Shown one piece after another: positions 24,597-54,320 of a DNA stretch of 64,000 nt. Position 1 is the stretch's first letter. Every line of letters starts with the position of its first letter. Source of the DNA: Apostichopus japonicus (lineage: Eukaryota > Echinodermata > Holothuroidea > Aspidochirotida > Stichopodidae); contig NC_092572.1 of the NCBI RefSeq assembly GCF_037975245.1, positions 4,671,501-4,735,500 on the forward strand, in the 5' to 3' direction. Position numbers and translations under genes: made by a program. The notes beneath the pieces were generated by a model that was not told the origin of the DNA, did not search any database, and worked only from the letters and a program-made list of their open reading frames with translations.

Positions 24597-26420
24597 ATTT
24601 AAACAGCCAGTTATTTATAGCAATTACGGACAAAGGGTAACTATACGAATATATAAATTTACGTTTTATAGAAATTGCCGCAACGCGCAAGCTTAAAACT
24701 CAGAGGTCATTTTCTTAAGAATCATGCACTTTGTTAATACTGCAATTGGAAAAATTAATATACCCAAAGGGGTACAAATGTAATATGCTTTCATAATTAT
24801 TGTTTTCAACTGTTTATAGTAAAAAGATCATTATCAATTATTGATCACGTTCTTTTTCAACAACGTATAGACGTATATAGTCATTTAATCATTTAATATG
24901 ATGACTTTGTTTCTTAGTATATACGTTGTCAATACGTTCATTCCAGCTATTCAAATAGCTCGCTAATGACTTGTACGTAATGTATTATAAAGTAGGCTTC
25001 CCTCCTTACTTCTTATATTTGAAACTTCTGCTGCCGTTTATTAAAGCTTTGTATTGTGTTAGACAAAGGATCTTCTACCAGCGAGATTGCTTCAATTAAA
25101 TATATCAGACTAATGAATTGGAAAGGATGTAGTGTCCGCCAAAAAAGTAATATACTGCTTTCTTTCATTTCAAAATCAAATGCCCAATTTCATCACTTGT
25201 TTTGCATATTTTGTGGATCACGGAAAGGTTTCACGTTTTAAGCCTTCATTGTTAACACCAATAAACCGAACCGTAACTATACACATGTTTGCGTGTTTGC
25301 ACTAGTGTGTAGTAAATAATCTTAAAACTATAAAGATGTATTTTTGTGTGCAAAGTTTGACAAAATAACAAAAACATCGTCGTGATTGCTTTATAGTTTA
25401 CAATATAGTTACAATCTCCTAGACCGTCGCTAATGGTTACATAATATACATGTTATAATGCTTTAATATACATGATATTTTATGCAAATGATTATGTAAG
25501 TTCAGTATACTCCCAGTTGCCTTGGGAATTCAACTATCAATGCGTTTTTAAGAGGAATAGTGGTCAAATTGCTACACACGCAACATAAATTAATGTTTCG
25601 TTTTAATAAGAGCTGTCGGTTAAAGAGAATTAAATAAAATATCAATATGATATGGAGAGGGTGTTTGCTCATATGTCATCATCCTAATCTCAATCAGAGA
25701 ACAGTTTCGTGAAGTAACCAATTGTTTTTCTTCAAAATGGCGTTCTTGCAAATAATATTGACAGAAGTTTAAAATGAGAGATATAAATTAAAAGAGACTA
25801 GGAAACATTTGGGTAATTAAGGAAATATGACTTTTCACTTTTTCTCCAAGTAAAAGCTGAAAAATGAAAGATGTACGAGTGAATTCAACCATTTTACGTT
25901 GAAATGTGGTCTGTTAACCAAGGCCTGGTTTTTGCATTGTATAAGTACATGAAAAATATGACATATGAAATATGTTGCGTATTTTCTCATTTATTTGCAT
26001 GTAACATTTCTTATTTGTAAAATTCTGTAAATATACATTTATTCAAAAATGCAGGATAAATAGCCATTTAAATGGAATAATTTTACACAACAGTGTTGCC
26101 TTGTTAATTCATAGTAAAACGAGCAGACATAAACATTTTATCTCAATTCTGGTGGATTAGATGTCTTAAAAGAGTTTGCTGTTACAGATACTAACAAATT
26201 AAGCAATTTAGCCATAACATTCACTGAATTTTGAATAAACCATCACTTACTAACAAAAGCAAAGACTTTTATCAATCAAGTTGACAAAATATAGCAAAAA
26301 TTTAATATATGATTATTTTTGGTATGATTTTCCCAAAGCGAACATAAAATGCAAGTATTTTTTGATAAATAGTCATTTTGGGGCAAAATGGATATATTGT
26401 ACAATATTTTTTGTATCTTT
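24597..26420. other. AT-rich intergenic stretch
   Basis: No coding exon, RNA gene or terminal repeat recognised between the 3-kb element and the 70-bp satellite. Confidence 0.4.
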
Positions 26421-27445
26421 GGGGCGTTCCAATACACCCCAACCAGTTAAGTGTAGCAATACACCACTATGATAAATTTTATATATCTTTGGGGCGTACC
26501 AGTACGCCTCAACCAGTTAAGTGTAGAAATGCACCTCTATGATAAATTGTATTTATCTTTGGGGCGTACCAGTACGCCCCAACCAGTTAAGTGTAGCAAT
26601 ACACCACTATGATTAATTATATATATCTTTGGGGCGTACCAGTACGCCCCAACCAGTTAAGTGTAGAAATATACCTCTACGATAAATTGTATATATCTTT
26701 GGGGCGTACCAGTACGCCCCAACCAGTTAAGTGTAGCAATAGACCACTATGATAAATTGTATAAATCTTTGGGGCGTACCAGTACGCCCCAACCAGTTAA
26801 GTGTAGAAATGCACCTCTATGATATATTGTATTTATCTTTGGGGCGTACCAGTACGCAACCAGTTAAGTGTAGCAATAGACCACTATGATAAATTGTATA
26901 TATCTTTGGGGCGTACCAGTACGCCCCAACCAGTTAAGTGTAGAAATATACCTCTATGATAAATTGTATATATCTTTGGGGCGTACCAGTACGCCCCAAC
27001 CAGTTAAAGTGTAGCAATAGACCACTATGATAGATTGTATATATCTTTGGGGCGTACCAGTACGCCCCAACCAGTTAAGTGTAGCAATACACCACTATGA
27101 TTAATTATATATATCTTTGGGGCGTACCAGTACGCCCCAACCAGTTAAATGTTGAAATATACCACTATGATAAATTGTATATATCTTTGGGGCGTACCAG
27201 TACGCCCCAACCAGTTAAGTGTAGAAATATACCTCTATGATAAATTGTATATATCTTTGGGGCGTACCAGTACGCCCCAACCAGTTAAGTGTAGCAATAG
27301 ACCACTATGATAAATTGTATATATCTTTGGGGCATACCAGTACGCCCCAACCAGTTTAGAGTAGAAATACACCCCTATGATAAATTGTATATATCTTTGG
27401 GGCGTACCAGTACGCCCCAACCAGTTAAGTGTAGCAATACACCAA
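26415..27445. repeat. 70-bp satellite with palindromic core, 15 copies
   Basis: The unit starts at GGGG positions 26421, 26491, 26561, 26631, 26701, 26771, 26841, 26908, 26978, 27049, 27119, 27189, 27259, 27329 and 27399. The core GGGGCGTACCAGTACGCCCC is an inverted repeat around CCAG; the rest of the unit is AACCAGTTAAGTGTAGAAAT, CACCTCTATGATAAATTGTA and TATCTT. Units alternate loosely between a GCAATACACCACT and a GAAATACACCTCT form, so the real period may be a 140-bp dimer. The first copy is the most diverged. The palindrome is kept in nearly all copies. Confidence 0.95.
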
Positions 27446-27637
27446 GAAAATTGTGTGTGTTTCTCAAAACTACATATCTTCTTTTACACAAGTTGTTGCA
27501 AGAAAATAAGAGTACACACTGCCCAATCAATAGTATGTGTAAAACATAAGGTTTCCTAGTTATTCAGCTCAAATTCTTGATCTATAGCTGCATATCTTTC
27601 TTTCAAGTCACAGACTTCCCTCTTTGGAAGGCGATTT

Positions 27638-28163
27638 TTATGGGTTAAATTTTAAGTCCCAGAACATTAAGGAATGGAAAGAAACTGATGGTGTGTATGG
27701 CTGCTTATTTCTTCCTTGGCCACAGTCTAGCAGTTTCCAGTCTCCAGTCCAGGATCCCTTCATCCAATGTAAAATAACCTCATCCTTTTCAATTTTAGTG
27801 ACTTCTCCAAAGTATGGTCGTGTGCTTGAATCAATGAGGTTTACGGCTGCTATATTCCCAACTTTAATATAGTCAGATACTTCAATAACTTCTTTCGCAA
27901 AGTTATAACATTTATATATATCACCACTTTGAAGATCTTCAACTCTAAAAGCAAGGAGCAGAAGGGCAGAAGGACAGAAGATAGCGGTTCTTATTCTCCC
28001 TGTAACAATTATCCATTTGCAAAAACAGATCCTTCCCAAGAGTATCCTTGTGCTTCACTAGTGTCCACAAATTGCATGTAATGGTCATGTTTGAATCATG
28101 TTGGATATGCTTCAGATCAGTCATAACATATATGCAAACTTGTCACATGGACCTTTAGTGTGA
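27638..28163 (-). pseudogene. C-terminal exon of a DUF7869-like element gene
   Basis: A strong acceptor (CTCTTTCTTTTCAG, ending at 28164) opens an exon with GPCDKFAYML. Further on it has MDNCYRENKNRYLLSF (27972-28012 region), the DNxxRENKNR signature of a widespread RNase-H-like family I know as DUF7869. A last open segment is VGNIAAVNLIDSSTRPYFGE and VILHWMKGSWTGDW, a small barrel-like (chromo or BAH-type) tail common in the same proteins. The reading frame is not continuous, so this copy is broken, with a few breaks. Such proteins occur as repeat-borne genes in many marine invertebrates. The likely N-terminal part is at 35430-37350 on the same strand. Confidence 0.6.
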
Positions 28164-28164
28164 A

Positions 28165-29023
28165 TTAGACCACCTGAAAAGAAAGAGAAGAATGAATATA
28201 TATATACTACTTCATTGACATGTATGATAAAGAGGTTGTTATTACTTGTTTTCTGCTGTTAAATAAAGTTTGATAATTAACCTACTATGTGCTTTAACAA
28301 ACAAAACAAAACAGTCACATAATATTTGATGGATACTAAGGCCATTATCTTTATCAGAACAACAAATAAAGAACAGAATTGATTTGACCTCAACCAAAAC
28401 AATAGGAACACTAGACTTCTTGTAACCTTAGGTGTCCATCCTTATACTATTTATGAAGATAATCAAACTTCCCCTCTTGAGACATTGTGTTGTAAAACAA
28501 GGCATCATACAAACAAACACCCTGTATAAACACCCACACACACATGCTGCTCACGCACATACATACTGTACTATACACCAACATGACATTACAATTTCAT
28601 ACTGTAGGATTACAATTTCTCGGAAACCAGAAAACATGATGGTTACACTTATAATGACATAAACACTTTCCGTCTTGTGCACTCTTAGGTCACTTCACAA
28701 TACCATGGAGGTAAAACAGACCTCCATGATAATACTGACCTGTTATGTGGATGTGGATGTTTTACATCCTTATCACTCTGGACAAAATGTGGCAGATCAG
28801 TCTTTGATTGGTCCATTCCATCGACTATAAGGGTATTCAGTTCCAAAGAAACCTGGCACGCCTTAGTGCGGGCAAGATGTTACTGCTCTCCTTTTGACCT
28901 AGTAAAAATAGAATATATAATGATACAAAATAAACTCTTAACTGATACAGGGTTTACTATATCAGATAAGAAATATTGATTTGAGTTTTGATCCAATATC
29001 ATTTGAGAAATAATGTAAATGAT
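28165..29023. other. Non-coding, with a small palindrome
   Basis: Mostly unique AT-rich sequence with a (CA)-rich patch near 28530. At 28704-28730 lies ATGGAGGTAAAACAGACCTC, the core of a 26-bp palindrome also found in tandem near 43210. Confidence 0.5.
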
Positions 29024-29870
29024 ATATGGGTCAATCCATGCCAAATCAACAGATTTTTGGGTCGATTCCACGTCGACCCTTTTAGAATCGCCTGGAACTG
29101 ATATGGTGTCCTGCCATATGTCTCAAAGGATGAAATTGGGCAAAAAAAAGATTTGAAAACTTTTTCGTTGCTAGGTTACGACCCCGCCTAGCAACCAACT
29201 TAAAGTGGCGAAAATGAGAGTTACATCAGCCATGCTAACAACATTAAAAACTATTGAAATGTATTAAAAGGGTTCTGTCTAATACTCTTTGACTCCAACC
29301 CCCCCCCCACACCCTCCCCATAGTGCACTATGCATATTTGTATACATGCATACAGTATGTGACTGACTTTTACTGCAAAGAGACTGCATAAACATGCATT
29401 CAAGGTATACTGAATTATTGGTATGGTCCACAGTGTGCACTATATATGTGTGTACATGTTCAGTACAGTGTTATTTTACACCAAGTACTATTAAATACAC
29501 ACTGTCCAAAATAATGAACAGTATACACACTGTACATGTATTTACTGGTTAAACATTCCTTTTAAATTATTGAAAGTCTTTTAATTTATTGAATTAGCAA
29601 ACGAATTATACACTACATTGCAAATATTTAAAAAGACATTGAAATATGCACTATGCACTATATATGTGTGTACAAAATTAAGGGCTCTTAAAATGCAATC
29701 TGGATTTGGTTGCTAGGCGGGGCCGTATCCTAGCAAGGAAAACTTAAAAAAAAAAATTTTTGCCCAATTTCATCCTTTGAGACATATGGCAAGACACCAT
29801 ATCAATTTCAGGCGATTCTGAGAGGGTCGACGTGGAGGCCACTGTTGATTTGGCATGGATTGACCCATAT
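29024..29870. mobile_element. DNA transposon copy with about 175-bp inverted ends
   Basis: The left end ATATGGGTCAATCCATGCCA and the right end TGGCATGGATTGACCCATAT are mirror copies, and the match continues inward about 175 bp through GTCGACGTGG, CATATGTCTCAAAGGATGAA and GCCTAGCAACC (to about 29200, and from about 29708). The interior holds a GTGTGTACATG-rich module related to the neighbouring composite repeats. There is no transposase frame. Confidence 0.8.
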
Positions 29871-32800
29871 GTGTGTAAATGTTCAGTACAGTGTTATTTT
29901 TACACCAAGCACTAAAATACACACTGTCCACAATCATGTACAGTACACACTGTGTACTGGTCATTCCATTCAATACTGTGCATATTTCAATATCATTTTA
30001 AATATTTGCAATTTAGTGTATGCTTTTGCTAATTCAATAATTAAAAGACTTTCAATAATTTAAAAGGAATGTTTAACCAGTACATAAATGTGCAGTGTGT
30101 ACTGTACATGTTTTTGGACAGTGTTTATTTAAAAGTGCTTGGTCAAAAATAACACTGTACTGAACATGTACACACATATATAGTGCACACTGCATAGTGC
30201 ATACTGTGCATGTATTTCAATGTCTTTTTAAATATTTGCAATGAAGTGTATGCATTTGCTAATTCACTAAATTAAAAGACTTTTAATATTTTAAAAGGAA
30301 TTTTTAACCAGTACATACATGTACAGTGTGTATACTGTACATGATTTTGGACAGTGTGTATTTAAATAGTACTTGGTGTAAAATAACACTGTACAGAACA
30401 TGTACACACATATATAGTGCACACTGTACGCACTGGTTCACATTCATTTTCTATTCTGATATAGGGTTGGGTAGAGGATGTGGGTGGGAGGGGTGGGTTA
30501 CAAGCATACAGACAATTTGAAGCAGAAGATTACCATACCAAATAATTCAGTATACCTTGAATGCATGTTTATGCAGTCTCTATGCAGTAAAAGTCAGTCA
30601 CATACTGTGTGTATACAAATCTGCATAGTGCACTATGGGGAGGGTGCTGGGGGGGTGGGGGTGAGAGGGAGTCAAAGAGTATTAGACAGAACACTTTGAA
30701 TAAATACATTTCAATAGTTTCTAATGTTGTTTAACATCTCCTTGAATGAAGATACAATTTTACCACTGTTTGCCCTCGCAAGCATGTTTCTGTAGAGCTG
30801 ATGTAACTCTCATATACGCCACTTTAAGCTGCTCATCAGAGCATTAATAACTAATATAAAAGATGTTTTAGCTCATTCTGTGCATCATAACTATACATAT
30901 CTTACTAATTTTGTATTAAAAACCGAAAAAAAAACTTTTAATTGTGACCAAATTTGACCTTGAAATGCCCAAAATAGCCCAAAATATTGGTAAAATGTGA
31001 TGTTTGAGGGCGCTGTTCACAGGCATCGTTGAGCATATGACCCTGAAAATGCAGTTTATGTGTAGTCCTTATGCTAGTGGACCACCCTCCTAATTGTTAA
31101 GCACCTGTATGCTAATGCTAAGAAGTTGTTGTCATTTGAATTACTCAAATCGGCTTGTGCAAGCATTTTCATACATATGAACGAAGTGATTTTCGCAATT
31201 TTTGAGTCGTAAATTTGACTAGATAACACAAAATACACAACTTTTTGACTTGAGTTTTTAAAAATAGGGTCAATACACTCCTGAAAAATGCTATTTAAAA
31301 AAAAAAAAAAAATACCCACAGGCCCAAAATGGACCCCCAATTAGGGCCAGAAGTGAGATTTCTTAAGTTTGAGGGCGCTGTTCGTAAAACGTACGACCCG
31401 CTTGACTTTTTTTTTGCACTTTTCCCGTACAACTACCACTGGAAAAGGATCCTATGGAAATTAAAACTCAAACATGCCTCTGCTTGTGAATATAGAGCAC
31501 ACTCAAAGTAGGGCCAGAAAAGACCCCTATCTCATTTTCTGCCATTTTAATTACCTGTTACGAAAAATTGAGACCGTAAATTTTCCTCAAAATTAGCTAA
31601 ATTCGAAGACTGGCCACATGTCTTCCACAATATCTGCAATATCAGACATAAAATACTTTACATTTATGCAAAAAATGCCTCCAAACTTGACACAAATTAA
31701 GTGCTCTTAAAATGCAATCTGGATTTGGTTGCTAGGCGGGGCCGTATCCTAGCAACGAAAATTTAAAAAAAAAATTTTTTGCCCAATTTCATCCTTTGAG
31801 ACATATGGCAAGACACCATATCAATTTCAGGCGATTCTGAGAGGGTCGACGTGGAATCGACCCAAAAATCTGTTGATTTGGCATGGATTGACCCAAAAGT
31901 GTTCTGTCTAATACTCTTTGACTCCCTCTCACCCCCACCCCCCCCAACACCCTCCCCATAGTGCACTATGCAGATTTGTATACATACAGTATGTGACTGA
32001 CTTTTACTGCATAGAGACTGCATAAACATGCATATACTGAATGTTTTGGTATGGTAATCTTCTGCTTAAAATTGTCTGTATGCATGTAACCCACCCCTCC
32101 CACCCACATCCTCTACCCAACCCTATATCAGAATAGAAAATGAATGTGAACCAGTGCGTACAGTGTGCACTATATACTGTATGTGTGTACATGTATGTTC
32201 TGTACAGTGTTATTTTACACCAAGTACTATTTAAATACACACTGTCCAAAATCATGTACAGTATACACACTGTACATGTATGTACTGGTTAAAAATTCCT
32301 TTTAAAATATTAAAAGTCTTTTAATTTAGTGAATTAGAAAATGCATACACTTCATTGCAAATATTTAAAAAGACATTGAAATATGCACAGTATGCACTAT
32401 GCAGTGAGCACTATATATGTGTGTACATGTTCAGTACAGTGTTATTTTTCACCAAGCACTTTTAAATAAACACTGTCCAAAATCATGTACAGTATACACA
32501 CTGCACATTTATGTACAAGTTAAACATTCCTTTTAAATTATTGAAAGTCTTTTAATTCATTGAATTAGCAAAAGCATACACTACATTTCAAATATTTAAA
32601 ATGACATTGATATATGCACAGTATTGAATGGAATGACCAGTACACAGTGTGTACTGTACATGATTGTGGACAGTGTGTATTTTATTTGCTTGGTGTAAAA
32701 TAACACACATACTGAACATGTACACACATATATAGTGCACACTGTACGCACTGGTTCACAATTTTCTATTCTGATATAGGGTTGGGTAGAGGATGTGGGT

Positions 32801-33892
32801 GGGAGGGGTGGGTTACATGCATACAGACAATTTGAAGCAGAAGATTACCATACCAAAACATTCAGTATACCTTGAATGCATGTTTATGCAGTCTCTATGC
32901 AGTAAAAGTCAGTCACATACTGTGTGTATACAAATCTGCTTAGTGCACTATGGGGAGGGTGCTGGGGGTGGGGGTGAGAGGGAGTCAAAGAGTATTAGAC
33001 AGAACACTTTTAATAAATACATTTCAATAGTTTCTAATGTTGTTTAACATCTCCTTGAATGAAGATACTACGTTACCACTGTTTGCCCTCGCAAGCATGT
33101 TTCTGTAGAGCTGATGTAACTCTCATACGCCACTTTAAGCTGCTCATCAGAGCATTAATAACTAATATAAAAGATGTTTAGCTCATTCTTTGCATCATAA
33201 CTATACATATATCTTACTAGTTTTGTATTAAAAACCAAAAAAAAAATTTTTAATTGTGACCAAATTTGACCTTGAAATGCCCAAAATAGCCCAACATATT
33301 GGTAAAATGTGATGTTTAAGGGTGCTGTTCACAGACATCGTTCAACATATGACCCTGGAAATGCAGTTTACTTGTGGTCCTTATGCTAGTAGACCACCCT
33401 CTTAATTGTTAAGCACCTGTATGCTAATGCTAAGAAGTTGTTGTCATTTGAATTACTCAAATCGGCTTGTGCAAGCATTTTCATACATATGAACGAGGTG
33501 ATTTTCGCAATTTTCGAGTCAGAAATTTGAGTAGATAACACAAAATACACAACTTTTTTACTTGAGTTTCTAAAAATAGGGTCAATACGCTCCTGAAAAA
33601 TGGTATTTAAAAAAAAAAATTGTAATATACCCACAGGCCCAAAATGGACCCCCAATTAGGGCCAGAAGTGAGATTTCTTAAGTTTGAGGGCGCTGTTCAT
33701 AAAACGTACCACCCACTTGACTTTTTTTTGCACTTTTCCCGTACAACTACTACTGGGCAAGGATCCTATGGAAATTAAAACTCAACCATGCCTTTGCTTG
33801 TGAATATAGAGCACACTCAGAGTAGGGCCAGAAAAGGCCCCTATCTCATTTTCTGCCATTTTAATTACTTGTTACGAAAAATTGAGACCGAT
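29871..33892. repeat. Composite of repeat modules in alternating orientation
   Basis: About 30300-31573 and 32630-33892 are direct copies about 2.31 kb apart, close to 95% identical by eye, including a 1.1-kb block from GATATAGGGTTGGGTAGAGG to CGAAAAATTGAGACCG. Between them 31895-32640 is an inverted copy of about 29880-30720, and 31697-31894 is a second right arm of the GGGTCAATCC element at 29024-29870. Short ACAGTGTGTACTGTACATG units are repeated throughout. Successive insertion and duplication of one element family would explain this; open frames here are shared by the copies only because the DNA is. Confidence 0.75.
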
Positions 33893-35429
33893 CCAATGAC
33901 CTTTCTCTGAACTTTAGGGTTTGTCATCTTAGTTAGGGCTACTATATCCAATTTGTAGTTCAAGCAAGTTTTTGAAAGAGATAAGTGTTAACTAGGAGCA
34001 TCACTGACACACCCACACATATAGAGGACTTGAAGGAATAGATAGTCTTTCTATTGCTTTTGACTTCTGCAAGGATTCAAAAAGGAAAGCAGACATCAAC
34101 TTTTAATTCTAAATTAGTAAAATATTTTGACTCACTTAAGATGATTAAGATGAACTTCTTGCAATTGTCGGCATTCTTCATTTTCCTTTCCACTCCTTGT
34201 TCTTTCCGCTACCTCTTTCAAGTACCACCCACAGTAAACTCAGTCGTCTAGAAAAATATAATGTTGAAATACTTTAATTAAGCATTTAAAGTATAAGTTT
34301 TACTTCACACAATGGTGTAAAATTGAACTGCTTAACCTAATCAAGAAAAAGTTATGTAGTGATTAGTGATAGAGTTTTATTGTGTCAATTTGAACCATGT
34401 TGTTTTTATGAATACCCATAGAATAATGCAATGAGCATGTTGAAATTGTTTACTAATTATAACTGAAGTTAAGCATTCTTTTAGGTACTTTAGAGAATTC
34501 CTTTAAAGGAGTATAGGGTGTTGAGAGTAGCTAATTGAGAAAAGAACAAGTAAAGCTGTACAACATCTTCTCATGTTATTTATTAGACCAATTGATAGGG
34601 ATGTTTGGAAATAAGACCCTAATCATTTTCCCAGACAGTTGAGGTAAATGTCCTCAAAGGTGGAAATTAAAACAATTAAAGAAGTTTGACCAAAGGTAAG
34701 CATATTTCAATTTCTGGCATATTTGGGGGAACTTTCTGAAAATGTCACTATCTAAGGGAGTTGTTCATTGACATTTCAGCAGAAAGCACTTTTACTCCTG
34801 ATTTGAGTGGAGGTTGCAATCAAACTTATGTCACATGTTCTTTAGAACTTCTTTAAATCAAAATTTTTGACAATAATTCTAATGTTTTTAAGGAATGATA
34901 ATGCAGCTTTAGTGGCACACTAGCTGTGAGGTGTATTCTCTCCAGTATGTACAGTACAGTCTTTGTGCTTGCTGAAGCTGAAGCTAACAATAGAGACACA
35001 TGAATTTTTCTGAAGAAATGTTTAATGGACTGCACATGTAGTTAACTAAACAGATTAAATGTCACTGGATTGTATGAAGTTAAAGCCTCCATAGTCAGCA
35101 AAGATAAATGGATGCAATGCCTGTGGTTTTGACACCCCGGGCTATAACCCACCAATTGTGATTGATCAGCAGACCATGTACAGTACTTGAAAGTTATCAT
35201 TTGTAATGTACACAGCTATTGTTTGTGTGATAATTCTGGCAAAACAGTCTTACAACAACACTTTCGACCTCACAAGTTTCAGTTTACTTTATCAATGTCT
35301 TCATGCTAGTTAATCAATTTAAAGCTACTAGGCTAGCTATGAGGAATTTGAAATTTTATTCCCCTTTTCCCATGCAATGTATGCAACAATAACTGTCATA
35401 AATCCATGCACATTCACAAGATAAAATAA
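33893..35429. other. Non-coding stretch
   Basis: AT-rich; it may be intron of the minus-strand gene whose parts lie on either side. No repeat array or exon recognised. Confidence 0.35.
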
Positions 35430-37350
35430 TTAGGAATCTTGAACTCTTCTAAAGATTTCCATAAAGTATTCCTTGGAAATGATGCTTTGTTCACCAATGC
35501 CAATTTCTATCATTTCCTTCTTCATGCGTGCATGGAGAGAAGTCTTTGTGTATGACACTGGAAGGTGCACTTCTGTTTTGTGGGGCATGTAATCTCCAAT
35601 ATGTTCAAATAAACACCTCATCCAAGCTAGTGCAAATGGGGTTTTTGTTCTCATCCTTTTCTTGCCTTTATTGCCATGAATTGCATTTTTCTTGCCAACT
35701 TGAAATTATTTCAGACAATCTTTGAATAACTTGCTACTAATACCAAAGAACATACAAAATGCTTTCTCACATACAATCTTCCCACAAATTACATAAATAG
35801 AACAAGATTTGTCTCAGGTGTGACATGATCTTTCCTGATGAATCCAAATCTTGTCCAGAGTGAATTGCTTTAGCTAAGTTTCCCTCACTTCACTAACCTC
35901 TAGAAAAGACTGTTCTAGGTCATCGTAAGAAAGCGATTTGATACAGCTACCATCACAGCAATCAGATTGGAACATAGGCAGTGGATCAAGTGCTTGATTG
36001 GGTCTCCTTCATTTTTTCTCACTCCTGGTAAAAAAAAAAGGTTTTGATCACATGAAGAAATTGATGCAGAAAATTCTCTGGCAATACCAAAGCTACTGCT
36101 ACTACTTCCATTTGAACTTATGTCAAGGTACAACCACAGCGAATCATTTGTTGTATCTGGAGAAATAGTACTGATGTTGTGACTCACAGTGACTGCCCCA
36201 TTCAAACGGCAGTGAAAGTTTTGTTTTAGTATGATTATTTAAAGTTGGTTCCTCTTCCAAATTTTCCATTTCATTATCCATGCTCACGTTCCTTTTAAGT
36301 GTATTAGGTAGGGATGTATTTCCCTTGCTTTTGTGTGGAGATAAGAAAAGAGTTGGCTCAATGTCCAATTTGTCAGGATCATCCTCTTTACATTCTGACA
36401 GAAAACTGGTAATTTGTTAAAATTTGTAAGGGTTCCTTCACACATTTTGTTTCCCATGTAAGTGGAGCACAATGACAAATGAGCACAACTAAATCTTCAT
36501 TTACTCAGCTGCACACCACAATAATATGAGCCATGAATGTGAAACAGTATCCAAAGGCATGCATTGAAAGAGTAAGTCCTCACAGCATGACCACTGCTCA
36601 ACAGTTTTACTCCCTTTCTGTGGTTAACCCTGCTTTTGAAGACTATATATTCACTGTTGGTTGCTGCAGTATAGACTGCCTTACACTGTGATATGAACTG
36701 GCTAGGTGTCATATGATCCTTTATTGACACACTGTTTGACCACAACCAAAGAGGCAAAGTTTTCAGGTTTTATTTCCACAATGGAGTTGCAATCAGGCAA
36801 GACAATATTGTTGTGATTGATTGCTTCTGAGGTTAGTACTTTATGCAGACTGTGTAGCCCTGTTATGAAATCTTGCACATCTGTGAGGTAATGTGGTTGT
36901 ATGGAGGGAGAGGACTTCTCCAATGTCAGTATCAATGCTGCAATGTTGAAAAGTGAATTTTTAGTTGACAATATTTTGTCGAAATGGTAGTGTTCTACCA
37001 AACTTCAGTACAACTTGTAAAAAAGGACAAAACTCATTAACTTCAATAAAATAGCCTGACCTTCAATAATTTTCCTAGCCATTGGGACACAGTCCCTAGT
37101 TCCCACAATCACACATAGTGAGAGCAACAAATGTGAGTAAAAATCTGCACACTGGACCATGCAGGGACATATATATATGCCAAAACTGTTATTTATGTTT
37201 TGTTATTTTTTTCTTGGGGGAGGGGCATGTTTGTAACTGGAAAAGCCTGAAATAAATTATAGCAATTTGCACCATGTACAGTATGCAATAATGAAGTATA
37301 TGAGCACATTTGCTGCTATAAAGATTAAATTTGAAAATTAGCACTTACCT
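35430..37350 (-). pseudogene. N-terminal exons of a DUF7869-like element gene (fragments)
   Basis: Minus-strand pieces in order: a possible first exon ending at a good donor (TTAG|GTAAGT, about 37345); 36720-36965 with TDVQDFITGLHSLHKVL; 36550-36740 with FISQCKAVYTAATNSEY; 36144-36368, Ser/Lys/Glu-rich; 35915-36030 with LDPLPMFQSDCCDG; and 35430-35690 with HGNKGKK, ALAWMRCLFEHIGDYMPHKT, VHLPVSYTK and SKEYFMEIFRR. The HGN-x-G motif followed by a helical domain and an L-P-x-x-T-K element is the usual front half of proteins whose back half has the DNxxRENKNR signature, which occurs at 27638-28163. I infer one gene interrupted by the repeat composite. It appears broken in several places; whether any copy is expressed is unknown. 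Confidence 0.45.
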
Positions 37351-43763: not shown

Positions 43764-43915
43764 ATGACGAGACCAAGAAATTGGTGTGTGGCAGAGGAAG
43801 ACTCAAGATTTTTCTTTTTTTCGGACTTGTCCGGACTCTACTTTTGGAACCAAAGAGCCCTTGTCACCAATTACATGAAGATTCGAAATATACCGCCGAT
43901 CCCAAACAGCATTAA
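43764..43915 (+). CDS. Candidate first exon, unknown protein
   Basis: An ATG-started frame gives MTRPRNWCVAEEDSR and later YFWNQRALVTNYMKIRNIPP before ATTAAG|GTGAGG, a strong donor at 43916. The sequence is not low-complexity and its composition looks coding, with a hydrophobic and aromatic middle. I do not recognise the protein, see no matching next exon, and the region might be unrelated to any gene. Confidence 0.25.
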
Positions 43916-44905
43916 GGTGAGGAAAATTTTTGGACTTATTTCCGTATAATGAAATATATTTTGTGTTAAGAATAACCAAGTGGAGTTTTTGGTTCTTGCA
44001 TGTATATGGGTATGCTTTTAAAATAAATTGAAAGTGCATAGCCAATCGCCCCAAATCATAGCACGCTAAAATTGCTAGGCGTTTTCAAAGAGTACTTTCC
44101 TGGAAGCATTCACTCTCCATTTGTTCTCAAATATTCTAAATGAACACCCAAAGCCTTTCTTACCAAGGAAGTGATACTTCCCATGTTCGTACACTACTTG
44201 CAAGTACAACTTTCTCAGACAAATTATTCCATAACCCTCTGAGAATAAAAAGGAGTTTTGACAAATATATGGTACTTATAACTTCTGGAGTTTAAGACAT
44301 TGATCTCTGGTAATTCTGCTTGGCAAACCTGAAAATGTCAGTGAAGGATAAAATGTCTAAACCATACCATTCTTGAAAAACCGAATCAAGTCACCGCGTA
44401 ATTAACCGACCTATAACCTCCATTGTGGTGGGTGGGTTAACTGTCAGAATGCACATTATCAGTGTTTTTTATCTTCATACAGAACTGACATCAACAGTGA
44501 ATACTATTGTTCTCTGACTCGAGTCAAAGGACGCTTGAACCGCAGTGTGCTAATGTAACTGCCAAGCGTAACTTATTTGTGATTGCAGGTGTCCAACCGC
44601 AGTGTAGACTAGCATTTAACGTTATACATTGAATTCGAACTTCTTCATGATCTGTCGTCATATTTTGTGTATTACTATTTTTAAGTTGTTGATGCAAGCA
44701 CATAATGGACACCCTATACATTGCTCTAGACTGACTTTGACGAAAAAAACGTCCGTGTCATGTAGTGTGGCTTGTCTACAACCCAAACTGATTAGAAAGA
44801 TATTTCAATCAATTCTGACTTGATTGTGAGTGAAAAAATGCTACTTGAAGCAAGTGCAATAACAAGCAAAGCTGACAGCCATTTAACAAGTCAACGAGTG
44901 ACACT
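43916..44905. other. Non-coding stretch
   Basis: Nothing recognised apart from a short direct repeat, AACCGCAGTGT, at 44538 and 44597. Confidence 0.35.
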
Positions 44906-44913
44906 CCTGACGG

Positions 44914-45781
44914 CAGGGGCGTAGCGAAGGGGTTTTTGTTGGGGGGTGTGGAGAATTTGATTTGCCGACGGATCTGGAAGTGGTGACTGAAATGGGGGGT
45001 CTAAGGGGAGGGGGTGTCCCCCTCCCCTTTGGCAATTTTTTAGTTTTGAAACGTCCTTAGATGCAATCTGGTGCATATTTTAAGTCAAATTTGATTTGCC
45101 GACGGATCTGGAAGTGGTGACTGAAATGGGGGAGGGGTCTAAGGGGAGGGGGTGTCCCCCTCCCCTTTGGAAAATTTTTAGTTTTGAAACGTCCTTAGAT
45201 GCAATCTGGTGTATATTTTAAGTCAAATTTGATTTGCCGACGGATCTGGAAGAGGTGACTGAAATGGGGGAGGGGTCTAATTTTTAGTTTTGAAACGTCC
45301 TTAGATGCAATCTGATGTATATTTTAAGTCAAATTTGATTTGTCGACGGATCTGGAAGTGGTGACTGAAATGGGGGAGGGGTCTAAGGGGAGGGGGTGTC
45401 CCCCTCCCCTTTGGAAAGGTTTTAGTTTGAAACGTCCTTAGATGCAATCTGGTGCATATTTTAAGTCAAATTTGATTTGCCGACGGATCTGGAAGTGGTG
45501 ACTGAAATGGGGGAGGGGTCTAAGGGGAGGGGGTGTCCCCCTCCCCTTTGGAAAGGTTTTAGTTTGAACGTCCTTAGATGCAATCTGGTGCATATTTTAA
45601 GTCAAATTTGGCACGGAAGAAGCTCCCGTTCTCCTTTTTCTATTCAGCTTTCCTTCTTTCTTCCCCTTCCGCTCTCTTCACCTTTTCTCCTTTTGCCGAC
45701 AGACCCAAAATTTGCCGACAGCGACCAAATTATTGGGGGGTGTGACACCCCCCACACCCCCCCCCGCTCGCTACGCCCCTG
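44914..45781. mobile_element. hAT-like non-autonomous element (868 bp) with internal tandem units
   Basis: It starts CAGGGGCGTAGCGA and ends TCGCTACGCCCCTG, perfect inverted repeats of 14 bp, flanked by CCTGACGG at 44906-44913 and 45782-45789. Inside are five tandem units (starts about 44959, 45093, 45231, 45337 and 45473; about 135 bp each, one shortened to 106 bp), each with TTGCCGACGGATCTGG, a GGGGAGGGGGTGTCCCCCTC palindrome and TTAGATGCAATCTGGTG. The exact duplication indicates an intact insertion; the transposase must have come from elsewhere. Confidence 0.95.
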
Positions 45782-46189
45782 CCTGACGGTTTCTACTACT
45801 ACAATCTGTTTCTGTGATATTTTCCGACGAACAAGAAAACGGCGACCACAGTCGCGTAGTAACATACAAGTGCTACCTCCTTAAGCTTATATTATGTACG
45901 TACGTGAATTTGACATAAAACTTGAGGGTCAAAGGTGAACAAGTGAAGTACACTTCATGATGTGAGTTAGTATTAAACGTTAGGCCTACTTCAAGTTGAT
46001 TCAATGACTAGGATATACCGGCATATTAAATTTATTAGTCCTCTCGACAATTTACGGTACAATTAAAGGCAGGAGCCCAGGAAGTTATTGACCATGCGAT
46101 TTTGCCAATTTTTCTGACAAGTTCGGTTCGTTGTAATACGCCTCAAATAGAACTTAGAAGAAAAGGGGCCTCTACGGGCTCTAACTTCT

Positions 46190-46249
46190 AGGTAGCGTGC
46201 ACACTATTTCCAGATTGAAGTCTGTGTAGGCTAGGTCACAACATCAAAG
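46190..46249 (+). other. Candidate 5' untranslated exon end
   Basis: ACAACATCAAAG|GTGAGTCC is a strong donor at 46249/46250 with no coding frame before it. It could be the leader of the gene whose coding exon lies at 46816; the exon's start is not defined. Confidence 0.3.
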
Positions 46250-47230
46250 GTGAGTCCTAATTTCGTGCAGCTATTTGATTAATTCGATTGATGCTTCACG
46301 TTCCTTAACCTTCAGCTTTCATTTAAAAAAAAAACAACGTGTGTCTTTGTTGTTTGCACCTACAAATCTGTTAAAATTTCGTAGAAAATAACATTGTCAC
46401 GTCCAACTCCAACTTAGCAAGAGCTAGGCCCTAAGCCTATTTAATCAGTGAAGCCAGGATAGTGTTAACATATCAAAATTGTTAAAACGTGAAGTGCTCC
46501 TAAATCCTAATTTCGTTCCTGTTGTCGGCTACTCCAAAATCCTAAAATTTTATTGCAACTATATAATTAGTTTTGAATCAATATGATATAGTAACAAGGA
46601 ATATTATTGCTTCAGAGACTGACATGCACCAGTGCAGTAAAATGTTTACAGTCTTCAATTTCATGGGGGTGAAAGCCTCATGTGTACCCCTTCTCCCCTC
46701 TGGGTCAGACATTGGGCCAAGATTGGGGTTGAGATATTGGAGTCCAAGGAGTCAAAGGACACTAGCATATTATCATATTCAGGTTTACTAACTGCTCTTT
46801 TCCACTTTAAAACAGACCCTCAACATCAGGAAGTAAAGAGAAAAGAAAGGCTCAGCACAAGTTACCTGTGCTTCACAAAAAGAGGAAGAGTAATAAGGAT
46901 CAGCCAGTTGTCAGCCCTTTAGAATTCATCAAGAAGGAAGTTAATGCAGCATTCTTAGGTGAGAACCCTTAGAAGCTGTCAGGTACGGTAGCAGTACAAT
47001 ATACTGCCTCAGGAATTGGAACTGTTGTGGTTTTAGAACAGGGGGCCCCTACTAGCCAGATTGAGCATGCCAGACAATCTAATCTGGCCCACCAAAAAAC
47101 AAAGGGAAAAAAAAAAACAAACCTTTTGGTTCACCAATTTACTGGACAAAAAGAAAAATTGAAGAGAATTTGAATAAGCATTAATTTTCAACACGAAAAA
47201 ACATTGGTAAAAGTTTGTCCTAGATGCTAA

Positions 47231-47979
47231 TGTTATGAAATAGTGATACCATCTCTTTGATGTTACCGAAAAACTCCATCGAGACACCTTACGGGCCTCT
47301 TATGTATTTATCTAGGTCATGGATTCAGTTTTCCCACGAGAAGTTTTTAACTATCTTATTGAATCTTGGTACAGGGCCTTTTCCCAAAATAGATTCCATT
47401 ATGTCTGTGGAACATTCGAGAAGGTTCTCTCACGTGGTATGGAAGTTTCCATAGAAAGGGGATGGACTTCCAAACTCCCAACCAATCAGGGCAGATCAGT
47501 GCCAGTGCACTTATTTTTATATCATTAAGCTAATACAGGATGGTCAGGTCATTGGCTGCCTACTGATTGTGCGCAGTGAGATTTTATGGAAGTAAGGTAT
47601 AAAAGAAAAATGCGGCGGAAAGTTTTATCACTTGATCAGCAAATTTATCACTCCGTCAGCGCTCCGTGATCAGTTCGTCATTGCTTCGTTACTATTTCAT
47701 CACTCCTAATTGTTTAATTGACGGAGTCAAGTCAAGTCAAGTCAAATCATTGTAATTTAGTTTTATTTGTAAAGAGAATCGACAGAGAAGAAATTATACC
47801 GAATCATTAATCAAATCCTATCTCGTCAAATTGTTTTTTGTGTGAAGTCATTGTTTTCTTCCGTTCGAGACATCTCCTGAAGAAGCGTAAATACGGCATC
47901 AAGATATCCCAGTACCTTTCTATCGCGAGTCCCGATATAGTTTTACTATCGGAGGAGCCGGGCTCGTCACAATATTACA
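47231..47979 (+). repeat. Left LTR (749 bp)
   Basis: Contains a TATA box (TATAAAA at 47598) and a short (AAGTC)n run near 47726, consistent with promoter-bearing LTR structure. Confidence 0.93.
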
Positions 47980-48849
47980 CGGTAAAATTGCGGGGCATCA
48001 CTTTAATAAATCTTTGGTTATATGTAACCAAAAATGTTTTGTTTTATGATTTCCCCCCACACAAATGGTAGTGTATGAATGAACGGGTGTTAATGCTATC
48101 GCTGGATGCACTCGGGCTCCGCCCTCGTGCATCGCTTGCATTATCCCCCGATCGTGCATTTGTGAGTAACGCACGCTAGACCGTTGATTAACCCCTTATT
48201 GTTAAATGTTATCATAATAACAATGACTTGCTGCCTACCGTTAAACCATTGATTGTGTTACTCAAAATCATACTAAAACATTGTCTTAGAGATGACACTA
48301 ATTGATAACAATGACATGTTTTGTTTTTAATCCAGTTTTTGTTCCATTATTTTGTTCTCTAATGATGTTGCTTTAAAGACAATAGGAACATGTGACTTTG
48401 ACATATTATAGTAAGACTTTAACATATTAGTAACGAAGATAATGTTCTGTATATTTAACATTAACCCTAAATGCGATGATCGGCTCTCCATACATATCTT
48501 TCATTCTTCTTGTATCATTATTTTGCTTCCTCTTATTAATGGTACTGATTGATGATTAATGAATATCCATGATCTATTCATTGTAATTCAGTTTTTTTTG
48601 TCGTATTTGCATTAACGCAATTAGATGTTATGAAGCCATAAAGTTTACCAATATTACTCAACCCCCGTCCCGCATAACTGAATATAGGTACATTTACTAT
48701 ACCAACACCGACATGCAGACCATTTATGGAAGTCAATGAATATTAGTGAATGTGCTTACAGTACTCTACCTTCTTGAGATAATGATAAGTTAAAGCAGTA
48801 TGATGTTAAAATTTTGGAGTATCCAAAAATTTTAAAAGATTGAGGGGGA

Positions 48850-49598
48850 TGTTATGAAATAGTGATACCATCTCTTTGATGTTACCGAAAAACTCCATCG
48901 AGACACCTTACGGGCCTCTTATGTATTTATCTAGGTCATGGATTCAGTTTTCCCACGAGAAGTTTTTAACTATCTTATTGAATCTTGGTACAGGGCCTTT
49001 TCCCAAAATAGATTCCATTATGTCTGTGGAACATTCGAGAAGGTTCTCTCACGTGGTATGGAAGTTTCCATAGAAAGGGGATGGACTTCCAAACTCCCAA
49101 CCAATCAGGGCAGATCAGTGCCAGTGCACTTATTTTTATATCATTAAGCTAATACAGGATGGTCAGGTCATTGGCTGCCTACTGATTGTGCGCAGTGAGA
49201 TTTTATGGAAGTAAGGTATAAAAGAAAAATGCGGCGGAAAGTTTTATCACTTGATCAGCAAATTTATCACTCCGTCAGCGCTCCGTGATCAGTTCGTCAT
49301 TGCTTCGTTACTATTTCATCACTCCTAATTGTTTAATTGACGGAGTCAAGTCAAGTCAAGTCAAATCATTGTAATTTAGTTTTATTTGTAAAGAGAATCG
49401 ACAGAGAAGAAATTATACCGAATCATTAATCAAATCCTATCTCGTCAAATTGTTTTTTGTGTGAAGTCATTGTTTTCTTCCGTTCGAGACATCTCCTGAA
49501 GAAGCGTAAATACGGCATCAAGATATCCCAGTACCTTTCTATCGCGAGTCCCGATATAGTTTTACTATCGGAGGAGCCGGGCTCGTCACAATATTACA
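48850..49598 (+). repeat. Right LTR (749 bp)
   Basis: A copy of the left LTR with the same length and the same TATA box 1619 bp further on; I saw no difference between the two when reading them side by side. Confidence 0.93.
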
Positions 49599-50399
49599 CT
49601 AAAACAATCATCTTCCATTTTCAGCAATCTATTTTTGGCCTTTTGTTAGTCAAAATTTTCTCCTGTGGCTACCATGGTGGGCCCGCATACTGTATGAGTA
49701 ATATTCAGCAACCCACAACTAAAAGGACAGTAGGCAGCTGTTAAATTCATTTTACATCAGTTTCTGTGCAGTGTCCTTCATACTGAGCCATCTGTATGCC
49801 TCCTACTGCATGCCCATTAAGAACTGCCTCAACTGTTGACTTTTCACCAGAAATTTACAACATCAATAGAAGTATCAGTTTTTATTTGAGTGTTATCATG
49901 GAGGGGTCAGAACCCCATTAATAATGTATTCATTAATTGAACATTGCTTTTCAACATACTTTAACAATCACTATAGTCACTGTGTTCATTTGGTTTGAAT
50001 AGTATTTTTAGCTTTACAAAGTTTACGGAAAACCTTTTGCATACCTACAGTATGGCATTTCCCTGTCAGTTGATGTTAGCTTTGCAGAAATTTACTTACC
50101 ATCGTTTTTACTTCTCCACAGGTGTTGCAAATATTGACATAGAAAATCTAGAAGTTGGTCGGAAGTTGAGAGAAGTGAATGTGTAATTTCTCACCAAACT
50201 AAAAGAGGCTATGTTAGAATTTAACAACCACAATATCAACCACTGACTGTTATAGCAACAACTTTGGAAAACTTGGAGAATTTTTCAGAACCCACGGTGA
50301 GTAATCAGCACTTGATTATAAAGTGATTTTTATAATGGAGCTTCATAATTGTTTATCAAAAACCATGCAGCAGTGACTGCTTGTGTGTGCATATGTGAG

Positions 50400-51250
50400 A
50401 GAGAGATGCCTTAGCTCAAATTTTGAAAACTTTGATAATTCAACAAGTGCAATATGCATGAAGTTCATACTTGGTAGAAAGCTACCCCTTAGCAAATTCT
50501 CAGCTGCAATTGTTATTTAATTGCCAGTGGTCAAACCCTATAAATGACCTTACTGAAGTAAAGGTTAAGTGAAATTAGTATGCTTATCCCTCAATCGAGT
50601 GCTTACCACTTGCTGTTACTTAGTACGTCAAAAATTGTTTGAGGTCCACACCACCTAAAAATCTGAAACTTTGTTAACAGGTTATCTCACCATGTACAGC
50701 TTACATATAGTTCACACTTTGAACAATTAGAAGAATGTATTCGGTATCTACCACCTTAGTAAATTCTTCACTGTTATTGCTTTGGGAGGGGCCAAAGGTC
50801 ATATGAGATAACCAATGGTCTAAACCTGAAAACTTTGTGAATGAGCTAACTCAAAGAATAAAGCTACATAGAATGTCAAATTTGTTCCTCTGATTGAATA
50901 CTTGCCATCTACAGTATAATGTTAACTTTTTTGAGGTCAAATGTCATTTGAGGTAAATTTTAGTTAAATTCTGAAAACATATCTCACTAAGTACAGCTTG
51001 CATGAAGTTAATGCTCAGTATGAAGACACTCTTAGTAAATACTCAGCTGATAGTGTGTTGGGAGAAGTCAAGGTCATTTGAGGTCACTAGTGGTCAACAA
51101 CTGACAACTTTTCTAGCTGAAGAAGTGAAGTTTTGGTAAATTTCAAATTTGATAGGAATTAAGCATTTGTCTTCTTTTTTTTTTGGCTGTTTCGGTCAAG
51201 GTCACTCAAGGTCAGTTAATTTCAGTCTGAAAAACTTCTTGAACATGGTA
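50400..51250. repeat. Degenerate tandem repeat with AAGGTCATTTGAGGTCA motif
   Basis: About five diverged units of 140-190 bp in an intron of the ParB-like gene. Each has a version of GGTCAAAGGTCAT, ACTGGTGGTCAA, GAAAACTTTGT and TCTCACCAAGTACAGC (for example near 50520, 50793, 50933, 51068 and 51195). One further GGTCAAAGGTCATTTGGGG lies at 52889. The paired GGTCA half-sites look like nuclear-receptor sites but are part of the repeat. Confidence 0.6.
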
Positions 51251-52693
51251 CCTCACCATGCACATGGCAATATTAGCCCTAGACAAGAAGAACAACATGA
51301 ACAGATCTTTTACTTGACATGTGGATTCCTACATACATCATAATATTAAAAACCTTTGAAAACATGATAACTCAGGGTTGTCCACACCATATCTTTGAGT
51401 ACACATTTAGTTCTCCTTTGCTAATAGTTGCAAGAGATTTTTTTTTCCATTTCACTGTGGATCCCAAGTACTCAGTAGAACTCTCCCCTCCAATGCCCTA
51501 CAATAACAATAGGCAAAGGAATCACTAAGCCCTGTGGCTTTCTGTTTGCATGTCAATTACACCTGATCTTTGAGGACAAAAGTCTGACATTACGCTACTT
51601 TGACTTAAGTTACTGATATATTCATTTTCACATTTTGTAACAAATTTTTCTTTCAGGCAAATGGATACCATTATGAAGTTATTGGTGGCATCCACAATCT
51701 GACAGCCTGTAAGGAGCTGAGAGAGAGAAATCCAGACAAGAATGTAAAGATACAAAACTTTGGTTAGCAAACAAGCACATCAAAATAGGGGAAACCAGGC
51801 ATCATATGAGCATTGAGGTAAAGGTGACTACTATGAATGTTGTTTTTATAGAAGAATTTTTGCCGAGCAGTTATTCATCTCATTCCTCCATATTGTATAT
51901 TCAGGTTGCAATGACCTATGCATTAAGACATTGAAAGTGTGTATGGAAAAGTCCTTGTCTACACATAACACATAACTTTGTGTTGTGCACACAGAATCGC
52001 TCTCTTACAGTATGTGAATTTTCAAATAATTGTTATTTAATCACTCTGATAGGAAGGATTAGGTACAATATTGTAGTTCCTTTGCCAGTTGGACCATTAA
52101 CAGTATTATGCAACAGTTGCCATGGTAGTGGTTAGTTTTCCCAATAGGGGTCATTCATTGTGGGGTATTGCATGGTCACTGGAAGTGTTTGACTGAGGGA
52201 GGGGTAAAAGTTGTCTGTGTGGGGTGTCCAATTTTATGTCAAACAGTCCTCTTCAATGACTGGCTTGATTTTCTTAAAACTTGGTATGAAGGTGTTTTAG
52301 GGTGAAAGTCTATGTCTAGCAGACCCCCCCCCCCCCCCCAGAAACAGGGGTCAAATGTCACATCAAATTAAATTCAATGTTTTAATTCAATATTACTCCA
52401 AGGGGACACATTACATTCAAATGGAATCTTCACTTGTATAATGGGAACAACATGTAGGCAACTAATACAGGCAGAAATGTGACCTCTGTCATAGTATTAC
52501 TCAGATTGTAGAGGACAGCAGAGTGATAGCACTGCAATCATATGACAGTATAGTCCTGCTAACTTATCATATCAAAAAACATTTGCAGTCTTTGTTCATT
52601 TGTTTTTTTACTATCAATGCAACAGATAAAAAATAAATAAAATGGTTAGACTGTCAGTGTAGAATAAAGTTTTATTTCTCTTTTTTTCTGAAG

Positions 52694-52870
52694 ATGACAC
52701 AGAAATGCTCACACTGAGTCTGTTTAGTCTGGCCATTGCGTTCAAGAGGAAAACCATTGCAAGGAAACTTTGATGGGATGATGGCACAGAACTTAATGTG
52801 ACTATTGTTGCTAGGGATGATCCTAGATCACAGAGGATGAAAAAAATGTGTATAGCACTGATTAAAAGAA
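52694..52870 (+). other. Possible further exon of the ParB-like gene
   Basis: A pyrimidine-rich acceptor (CTCTTTTTTTCTGAAG) is followed by DDTEMLTLSLFSLAIAFKRK in plus-strand translation. Related proteins often continue the ParB-like domain with an 'L-x-D-x-E-x-L-x-L' helix. The frame does not stay open, so this is weak. Confidence 0.2.
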
Positions 52871-53229
52871 GTGTATTGATTTTGGTGAAGGTCAAAGGTC
52901 ATTTGGGGACAACAGGGAGGTTAATTGTCTTGTAGGGTATATGTGTTCATGTTCAGAAAGTGGCAACACTGAAACAGCCACATGGTCTTCTACTCTGCAA
53001 ATCCTAAAATGCTTGTTTTAAGTGTGTGTGAAATAAAAAGGGGGGGGGGGGGAGGGGGTAAGGTTACAGTGACTTTCTCTTATTATTGTATTTTTTTGGT
53101 GAAAAATTATTAGTAGGGGTATCAGTATGCCCATTAGAGCAATCTGAGGGTCTGAATAGTACATCCTTCAGAACTGCATTGTAAGCCACTTATTGTTGTT
53201 ATTAATGATGTAATTTCTTATTGCTAACT

Positions 53230-54320
53230 GACACTCCGAGCAGTAGGGGGTGTATCGGTCTTCAGAACTGCATTCTTAGCCACCTAATGGTGTTATTATG
53301 TTATTTCAGAACTAATGGTGTAACTTCTTGGTGCTAAATGACTCTCCAACCATTAGCGGGGCGTTTTGGTACACCTCTCAGAACTGCTTTGCAAGCCACT
53401 AAATTTTGTTACTTCTTGGTGCTAAATGACACTCCAACCAGCAGCGGGGCGTATTGGTACGCCCCTTAATGGTGTTAGTTCTTGGTGCTAAATGACACTC
53501 CAACCATTAGCGGGGCGTATTGGTACGCCCCTTAGAACTGTATTGCAAGCCACTAAATTTTGTTACTTCTTGGTGCTAAATGACACTCCAACCAGTAGCG
53601 GGGCGTATTGGTACGCCCCTTAATGGTGTTAGTTCTTGGTGCTAAATGACACTCCAACCATTAGCGGGGCGTATTGGTACGCCCCTTAGAACTGTATTGC
53701 AAGCCACTAAATTTTGTTACTTCTTGGTGCTAAATGACACTCCATCCAGTAGCGGGGCGTATTGGTACGCCCCTTAATGGTGTTAGTTCTTGGTGCTAAA
53801 TGACACTCCAACCATTAGCGGGGCGTATTGGTACGCCCCTTAGAACTGTATTGCAAGCCACTAAATTTTGTTACTTCTTGGTGCTAAATGACACTCCAAC
53901 CAGTAGCGGGGCGTATTGGTACGCCCCTTAATGGTGTTAGTTCTTGGTGCTAAATGACACTCCAACCAGTAGCGGGGCGTATTGGTACGCCCATTAGAAC
54001 TGTATTGCAAGCCACTAAATTTTGTTACTTCTTGGTGCTAAATGACACTCCAACCAGTAGCGGGGCATATTGGTACGCCCCTCAGAACTGTATTGTAAGC
54101 CATTAATGGTGTTTCTTCTTGGTGCTAAATGACACTCCAACCAGTAGTGGGGCGTATTGGTACGCCCCTCAGAACTGTATTGCAAGCCACTAAATGTTGT
54201 TACTTCTTGGTGCTAAATGACACTCCAACCAGTAGCGGGGCGTATTGGTACGCCCCTCAGAACTGTATTGTAAGCCATTAGTGGTGTTTCTTCTTGGTGC
54301 TAAATGACACTCCCTTGCAG
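53230..54320. repeat. 154-bp dimeric satellite with palindromic GGGGCGTA core
   Basis: Alternating 88- and 66-bp monomers. Both share TTCTTGGTGCTAAATGACAC, TCCAACCAGTAGC and the palindrome GGGGCGTATTGGTACGCCCC; the longer monomer adds AGAACTGTATTGCAAGCCAC, the shorter TTAATGGTGTTAG. Core starts include 53358, 53446, 53512 and 53600 (154 bp from 53446). About 13 cores in total, the first and last diverged. The later copies (54060 onward) use only the long type. Confidence 0.95.

Follow-up and report, generated by a model that had tools for sequence, protein, structure and literature searches.

Introduction

DNA transposons of animals are usually a few kilobases long, and in the CACTA (En/Spm) transposons the protein TnpA binds a subterminal motif. 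CACTA elements are the closest in plan to the system described here, being terminal inverted repeat (TIR) transposons with subterminal repeats at both ends and mirrored tandem zones (PMC8978399). Transposition efficiency is reported to drop above about 6 kb of cargo, and the same source describes Polintons/Mavericks, which are likewise giant DNA elements, as 15–25 kb and up to 40 kb long (PMC6431247). Here, a stretch of 64,000 nucleotides from Apostichopus japonicus (assembly GCF_037975245.1, contig NC_092572.1), termed the window and corresponding to C12:4671501–4735500, was analysed together with the whole genome (671,581,487 bases in 35 contigs). Window positions 25792–54760 are one copy of a giant TIR DNA transposon that carries a gene for a DUF7869 protein. 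Two satellites with one palindromic core, previously noted as different satellites 26 kb apart, are the subterminal arrays of this transposon, so that the "two satellites" are a concrete case of the end zones of one mobile element.

Boundaries and copies of the transposon

When the neighbourhoods of the arrays were aligned across loci, homology started abruptly near 25.79 kb of the window and stopped abruptly near 54.76 kb. Both stops are inverted repeats of each other, forming sharp, common TIR boundaries. The features that define the copy are given below in window positions.

25792–54760, plus strand: whole transposon copy of family 1, 28,969 bp, with ends AAGAGRCTAGGAAACATTT; homology to other copies stops here.
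25788–25791: left target-site duplication (TSD), TTAA, with which the left flank ends.
54761–54764: right TSD, TTAA, with which the right flank begins.
25792–25855, plus strand: left TIR, starting AAGAGACTAGGAAACATTTGGG; inner limit approximate.
54697–54760, minus strand: right TIR, starting AAGAGGCTAGGAAACATTTAGGG on the minus strand; inner limit approximate.
29231–32998: stretch with long inverted repeats, absent from the copy at C16:2.38 Mb (an alignment gap) and probably a secondary insertion.

Of 43 candidates for the left array, 40 were scored and contained 66 matches, which were merged by eye into 40 pieces; of 58 candidates for the right end, 40 were scored and contained 550 matches and 40 right ends. 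All copy and end counts are lower bounds. With about 40 loci per end at the least, the arrays are not limited to the two in the window by descent from one locus, which the original prediction had named as a case against its own idea. Within 150 kb, 34 of the 40 left pieces have a right end that is correctly ordered and oriented; two left pieces on C14 share one right end, leaving at least 33 distinct copies with both ends. Six left pieces and seven right ends are unpaired, and two neighbours stand in the wrong order. The distance from the left array to the right end has a median of 27.0 kb and falls within 21.7–44.5 kb in 32 of the 34 pairs, with outliers of 2.1 kb and 124 kb. The copy at C1:3183873–3307783, approximately 124 kb long, possesses matching TAAC duplications at its far ends and is probably a single unit enlarged by about 100 kb of nested insertions or cargo. 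On C14, an internally deleted copy of 2.7 kb retains the TIRs and arrays of both ends and is flanked on each side by CTGG, as read by eye.

An exact 4-bp TSD flanks 12 of the 14 family-1 copies with both ends read (TTAA, ATAT, ATAC, TTAG, GTTA, CTAG, ATAC, TAAT, GTAT, TAAC, ACAG, and GTTG), and three of the four bases match in the remaining two (CTAT/ATAT and TTAT/TTAG). TTAA accounts for one of the 12 exact duplications; hence, the target site is not restricted to TTAA. The ATAT duplication sits in an AT repeat, and its true length may exceed 4 bp. Judged by their left ends, the family-1 copies are young, with recent activity: across 28 copies (600 bp outside the array, with row L069 left out), the mean pairwise divergence is 1.6% and the maximum 5.5%.

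The copies are unevenly spread over the contigs. C16 (46.0 Mb) contains 13 of the 40 left-array pieces where 2.7 are expected (binomial P 1.5e-6, or P 3e-5 without two pieces resembling segmental duplicates), and this excess may reflect segmental duplication, local hopping, or a chromosome that is permissive or sex-linked. The C16 copies at 15.98 and 17.01 Mb have the same outer left flank, and those at 15.98, 16.62, and 17.01 Mb each contain a single TAG stop in a DUF7869 match of equal score; from the flank common to two copies and the stop common to three, the region C16:15.98–17.01 Mb looks segmentally duplicated. At C22:17150905–17181939, the left and right ends are situated 31 kb apart with the right end inverted, which suggests an inversion.

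Two arrays with one palindromic core

The two arrays are situated near opposite ends of the transposon, as follows.

26414–27444, plus strand: left subterminal array, composed of fifteen 70-bp units with the core GGGGCGTACCAGTACGCCCC, from Tandem Repeats Finder (TRF) and core matches.
53313–54257, plus strand: right subterminal array, 12 cores in 88/66-bp units, core GGGGCGTATTGGTACGCCCC, inverted with respect to the left array.

TRF places both arrays where they had been predicted, with the core in 15 and 12 units, respectively; the right array is composed of a 154-bp (88 + 66) row at 53313–54082 and a 308-bp row extending to 54257. The core is exact in 11 of its 15 left and nine of its 12 right occurrences, and none was found in 100 shuffles of the window. 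Its palindrome consists of perfect 8-bp arms around a 4-base centre. Read in opposite directions, the left and right cores agree in 19 of 20 bases. With the core taken out, no similarity beyond that of shuffled sequence is left between the flanks of the two arrays (the observed alignment score was reached by 1253 of 2000 shuffles); hence, the shared core of the original prediction stands, and the shared neighbour CCAGTT/CTGGTT...AGTGT is weaker than was stated. In the whole genome, the exact core pattern has 695 forward and 634 reverse occurrences (control 0/0), and of the first 100 places, 96 are on C1 in four arrays and four on C2 in one array. The core had no match in a viral contig collection, and a scan of a genome contig collection returned five stretches in bacterial records and nothing useful.

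The arrays keep fixed positions in the transposon and vary in size. The first core of the left array is located 628–630 bp from the left end (28 sites) and the last core of the right array 504–507 bp from the right end (14 copies), and the arrays contain 12–30 cores on the left (loose count) and 12–42 on the right. The core had been proposed either as a trace of one array being an old derivative of the other or as a mobile or selected module; the module is borne out, in that the core is a constrained module and part of a mobile element, and the inverted placement of both arrays at the ends of one element was unforeseen.

In every array type, the core changes less than most of the neighbouring sequence. 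In the window copy, the left array departs from its consensus at 8/300 core positions and 48/750 others, and the right array at 5/240 and 115/912, the last figure being raised by the two unit types. In 442 left units from 28 arrays, substitutions amount to 1.5% in the stem, 2.5% in the centre, 3.1% in the right neighbour, 11.7% in the next segment, and 3.8% in the AT-rich rest. In the right cores, the stem shows 3.0% versus 7.5% upstream (239 cores, 14 copies), and in a second family described below, the core shows 0–0.7% versus 3.1–6.7% outside (four arrays of 16, 9, 16, and 27 units). The comparison proposed earlier, core against spacers, thus came out as foreseen in all array types examined, yet one five-base flank is kept better than the core.

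In addition, 24 of the 442 left units contain the core GGGGCGTTCCAATACACCCC, for example at window 26421–26440. This core belongs to the first unit in all three left arrays inspected, and such an edge unit escapes homogenisation. The amphioxus "mirage" minisatellites were considered as relatives of the arrays and rejected, since mirage units duplicate exon–intron boundaries.

The DUF7869 gene

The gene has multiple exons and lies on the minus strand, with the following parts in the window copy.

27641–28054, minus strand: C-terminal exon region of the DUF7869 protein gene (frame), with the C-terminal motif at 27737–27808.
27966–28136, minus strand (C12:4699466–4699636): DUF7869 profile positions 23–81, with the second acidic motif DNCYRENKNR.
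28787–28822, minus strand: first acidic motif of the putative DDE domain (DGMDQSKTDLPH).
35445–35705, minus strand (C12:4706945–4707205): N-terminal exon.
35918–36238, minus strand: frame region with a more N-terminal cysteine motif, CDGSCIKSLS, at 35928–35957.

The DUF7869 match is located approximately 0.5 kb inside the left array and is the sole strong Pfam match of the window copy (E 2.4e-17) among 90 frames of at least 62 residues in 27450–54800, a scan that misses shorter exons. Across the whole genome, 42 of the 53 DUF7869 matches are at most 15 kb from a left array of family 1, six are in family 2, two are at most 50 kb from an unpaired right end of family 1, and three, all weak, are elsewhere; the 47 matches of the N-terminal exon are distributed as 41 near left arrays, two in family 2, three near unpaired right ends, and one elsewhere. 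The weak matches outside these elements (C12:32587140, C20:9563474 with an 875-residue frame, and C17:7458637) perhaps belong to other transposon families.

Such an order of acidic motifs as D-D-(E/D) is that of DDE transposases. In the loci at C22:19.56 Mb and C17:24.71 Mb, the three acidic motifs D1, D2, and D3 stand in this order, and the sequence comprises, in succession, the motif DGMDQSKT, the motif DNC.RENKN, PVGHTHEDVDQMF, and a following exon. The three exons score 95.1, 53.2, and 38.9 bits against DUF7869 (PF25273) in C22, and 99.5, 52.5, and 34.5 bits in C17, with a curated cut-off of 26. From the motif order, we infer that the DUF7869 protein is a DDE-type cut-and-paste transposase, and a domain of unknown function would thereby gain a testable transposase role.

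Among 30 left-array loci (28 sites, two pairs of which overlap), 27 possess D2 and the C-terminal motif and no D3 was found in them, and L022, L033, and L041 are missing one or both of D2 and the C-terminal motif. D3 appears in none of the 30; however, the loci as scanned extend just 1.5 kb inward, and that of C22 (L041) stops short of its own third motif. The distance from D2 to the C-terminal motif is 175 bp in the window and in L059, and about 3.8 kb in C22. The rest of the DUF7869 profile was matched in three family-1 loci, at C22:19.56, C12:24.98, and C8:11.10 Mb. Most of the copies scanned have thus lost the catalytic end through a common deletion and were presumably mobilised in trans.

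Two further frames were inspected by eye. That at L060:669–920 (plus strand) resembles a piece of a PIF/Harbinger transposase and has no Pfam match at E 1. Of 28 candidate stretches on viral contigs, one (L076) held a relative of the DUF7869 exon that was put down to chance; other frames of L076 look phage-like.

A second family with a different core

Family 2 comprises two loci with all motif exons, at C17:24.71 Mb and C16:42.32 Mb. Past the 3' end of the gene stands a 93-bp array; its counterpart, composed of 83-bp units, is situated 22–25 kb off in inverted orientation, the two kinds of unit being 64–67% identical in matched stretches. Both arrays share a 32-bp block with 29 identical positions around GGGTTYACYAGCGAACC, and their alignment score was reached by none of 2000 shuffles. 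Furthermore, the units align across strands as well (11 of 500 shuffles), as expected of a palindrome. The ends of family 2 are inverted repeats, AACGTGGTTGC and AACGTAGTTGC, and both copies have a 4-bp TSD as read by eye, CTTC and ACTA. The core GGGGCGTA was found, within three mismatches, in none of the five family-2 stretches examined, and family-1 and family-2 units show marginal similarity (31 of 2000 shuffles), from which no relation is claimed. On these sequence comparisons, family 2 is an independent replicate: two satellites with one palindromic core in different letters, inverted between the ends.

Role of the core and the arrays

The locus is best explained, with good confidence, as a TIR transposon with subterminal arrays and a DDE transposase, in which the palindrome is bound by a protein of the element. 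More specifically, the core is rather likely to be a binding site for an element protein, most simply the transposase. An element protein is indicated by the arrays being near both ends, inverted, and retained both in copies whose gene is incomplete and in the 2.7-kb derivative. The different cores of the two families likewise point to an element protein as the binder, and a palindromic duplex site to a dimeric one. In such a mechanism, the DUF7869 protein, or another element protein, would bind the core as a dimer along both arrays, and the many clustered sites would mark the ends and help to join two ends separated by 20–45 kb. Copies without the third acidic motif would be moved in trans by copies that retain it; under trans-mobilisation, the cis sites (TIRs and arrays) would stay while the gene decays. 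Unequal exchange would lengthen and shorten the arrays, and selection for recognised sites would keep the core while spacers drift.

Several points weigh against this explanation. The DDE assignment rests on motif order in a domain of unknown function, and the C22 copy with all motif exons has no right end among the at least 40 right ends listed. Most known transposase sites are closer to the ends than the arrays, which start 0.5–0.8 kb inward. The units were found by a tolerant core match, which biases the core rate down, and homogenisation within arrays inflates the apparent conservation. The flank TCTTT of the left units shows 0.5% substitutions and is better kept than the core, so the conserved block is longer than the palindrome. 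The agreement of 19 of 20 core bases despite unalignable left and right flanks is less open to the unit-finding bias.

Alternatively, the core may bind a host factor, such as a transcription factor, an insulator protein, or a silencer, for expression or chromatin rather than for transposition. Palindromic sites fit many dimeric DNA-binding proteins and the 0.5–0.8 kb between arrays and ends would suit such a role, but two families with different cores in one genome are easier to reconcile with element-encoded, co-evolving binders, and inverted arrays at both ends fit end recognition. This alternative is considered unlikely. Quite unlikely, too, is that the arrays are passive by-products of slippage or unequal exchange, the core being kept by recent common descent and homogenisation. 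The free variation of array length, the youth of the copies, and the better-kept TCTTT are all in keeping with passive arrays; however, the left and right units cannot be aligned outside a core that is nearly identical between them, and family 2 repeats the pattern with other letters.

That the core forms a hairpin or cruciform in single-stranded DNA or RNA, as at a rolling-circle origin, a Helitron end, or in a structured RNA, is very improbable, although the arms are perfect and a second small inverted repeat adjoins the core in left units. In the 442 left units, the 105 changed stem pairs comprise 87 broken pairs, 17 G-T pairs, and one compensatory change. As many as 54 of the broken pairs derive from 26 edge units of one inherited type, and without these, 33 broken, 17 G-T, and one compensatory remain (51 pairs). 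Because stem changes are almost never compensatory, a duplex-DNA site is expected rather than a hairpin, contrary to the selected hairpin or cruciform suggested earlier. The Helitron or rolling-circle hairpin offered with it is contradicted by the TIRs and the 4-bp TSDs, which rule out a Helitron; Rfam has no match within the window, and the 90 frames of the window copy contain no match to Rep/helicase. The hairpin is thus largely refuted. Two independent satellites sharing a core by gene conversion or chance, for which the different unit lengths and unalignable flanks might speak, have a negligible probability and are refuted by the fixed order and orientation in 33 copies and the fixed distances from the ends.

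A young family of 22–45 kb elements shows that a natural way round the size limit exists, and the paired arrays suggest how.

Other features of the window

Further tandem arrays, rich in CAACTGGGTT/CCCAGTTGGG, are located left of the element at 21678–22017 and 24125–24380, and no relation to the core was seen in them. Also outside the element, a THAP-like frame at 13899–14579 and C-type-lectin-like frames at 17819–19129 were recognised by eye. Inside the element, a 1.6-kb stretch is duplicated in 47.2–49.6 kb (the frames at 47239 and 48858 have an identical reading), and the copy at C16:2.38 Mb is without about 2.4 kb corresponding to 47.2–49.6 kb.

Comparison with known systems

The superfamily is left open. 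Tentatively, and with more doubt than confidence, the two families might represent an unnamed superfamily of giant animal DNA transposons, with a DUF7869 transposase and a free 4-bp TSD, the ends of which would be recognised via family-specific inverted palindromic satellite arrays; in this reading, the satellites would act as functional synapsis platforms, enabling elements of 20–45 kb to move. Among the papers listed, none describes this element in its title or opening lines, a scope outside which Repbase and most subscription journals fall.

Sola elements resemble the present element in possessing 4-bp TSDs without a fixed sequence and differ in being a few kilobases long; among the Pfam matches shown, DUF7869 alone passed the curated cut-off. 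The TSD of Polintons is 6 bp and that of the piggyBac-type Teratorn, another giant animal DNA element, is TTAA, whereas the TSD here is 4 bp and not restricted to TTAA. In the 90 frames of the window copy, which is possibly decayed, there was no match to a polymerase, a capsid protein, or a strong integrase (rve_2 at E 0.1).

Kolobok and KolobokP share with the present element a 4-bp TSD and termini starting with two purines, their DDD/E transposase would correspond to the putative one here, and the KolobokP species table includes A. japonicus (PMC9587614). However, Kolobok TSDs are described there as TTAA-specific, in contrast to one TTAA among the 12 exact TSDs here, so that piggyBac and Kolobok were rejected as assignments. 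Furthermore, KolobokP possesses long terminal direct repeats and autonomous families of 4.0–4.7 kb (PMC9587614), whereas the elements here are 22–45 kb long with no such end repeats seen.

In the Jozin satellites derived from CACTA elements of Chenopodium, part of a transposon becomes a tandem array, as is the case here (PMC7320549). As described in that source, a coding fragment seeds the Jozin satellites, whereas the arrays here are non-coding and situated inside the element near both ends.

Compared with CACTA, the mirrored plan of which is the nearest to that found here, the present element utilizes a 4-bp instead of a 3-bp TSD, has the termini AAGAG/AACGT instead of CACTA, and carries DUF7869 in the place of Transposase_21. 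Unlike the subterminal repeats of CACTA, the arrays here are satellites of roughly 0.8–3.5 kb, built around a palindromic core of 17–20 bp.

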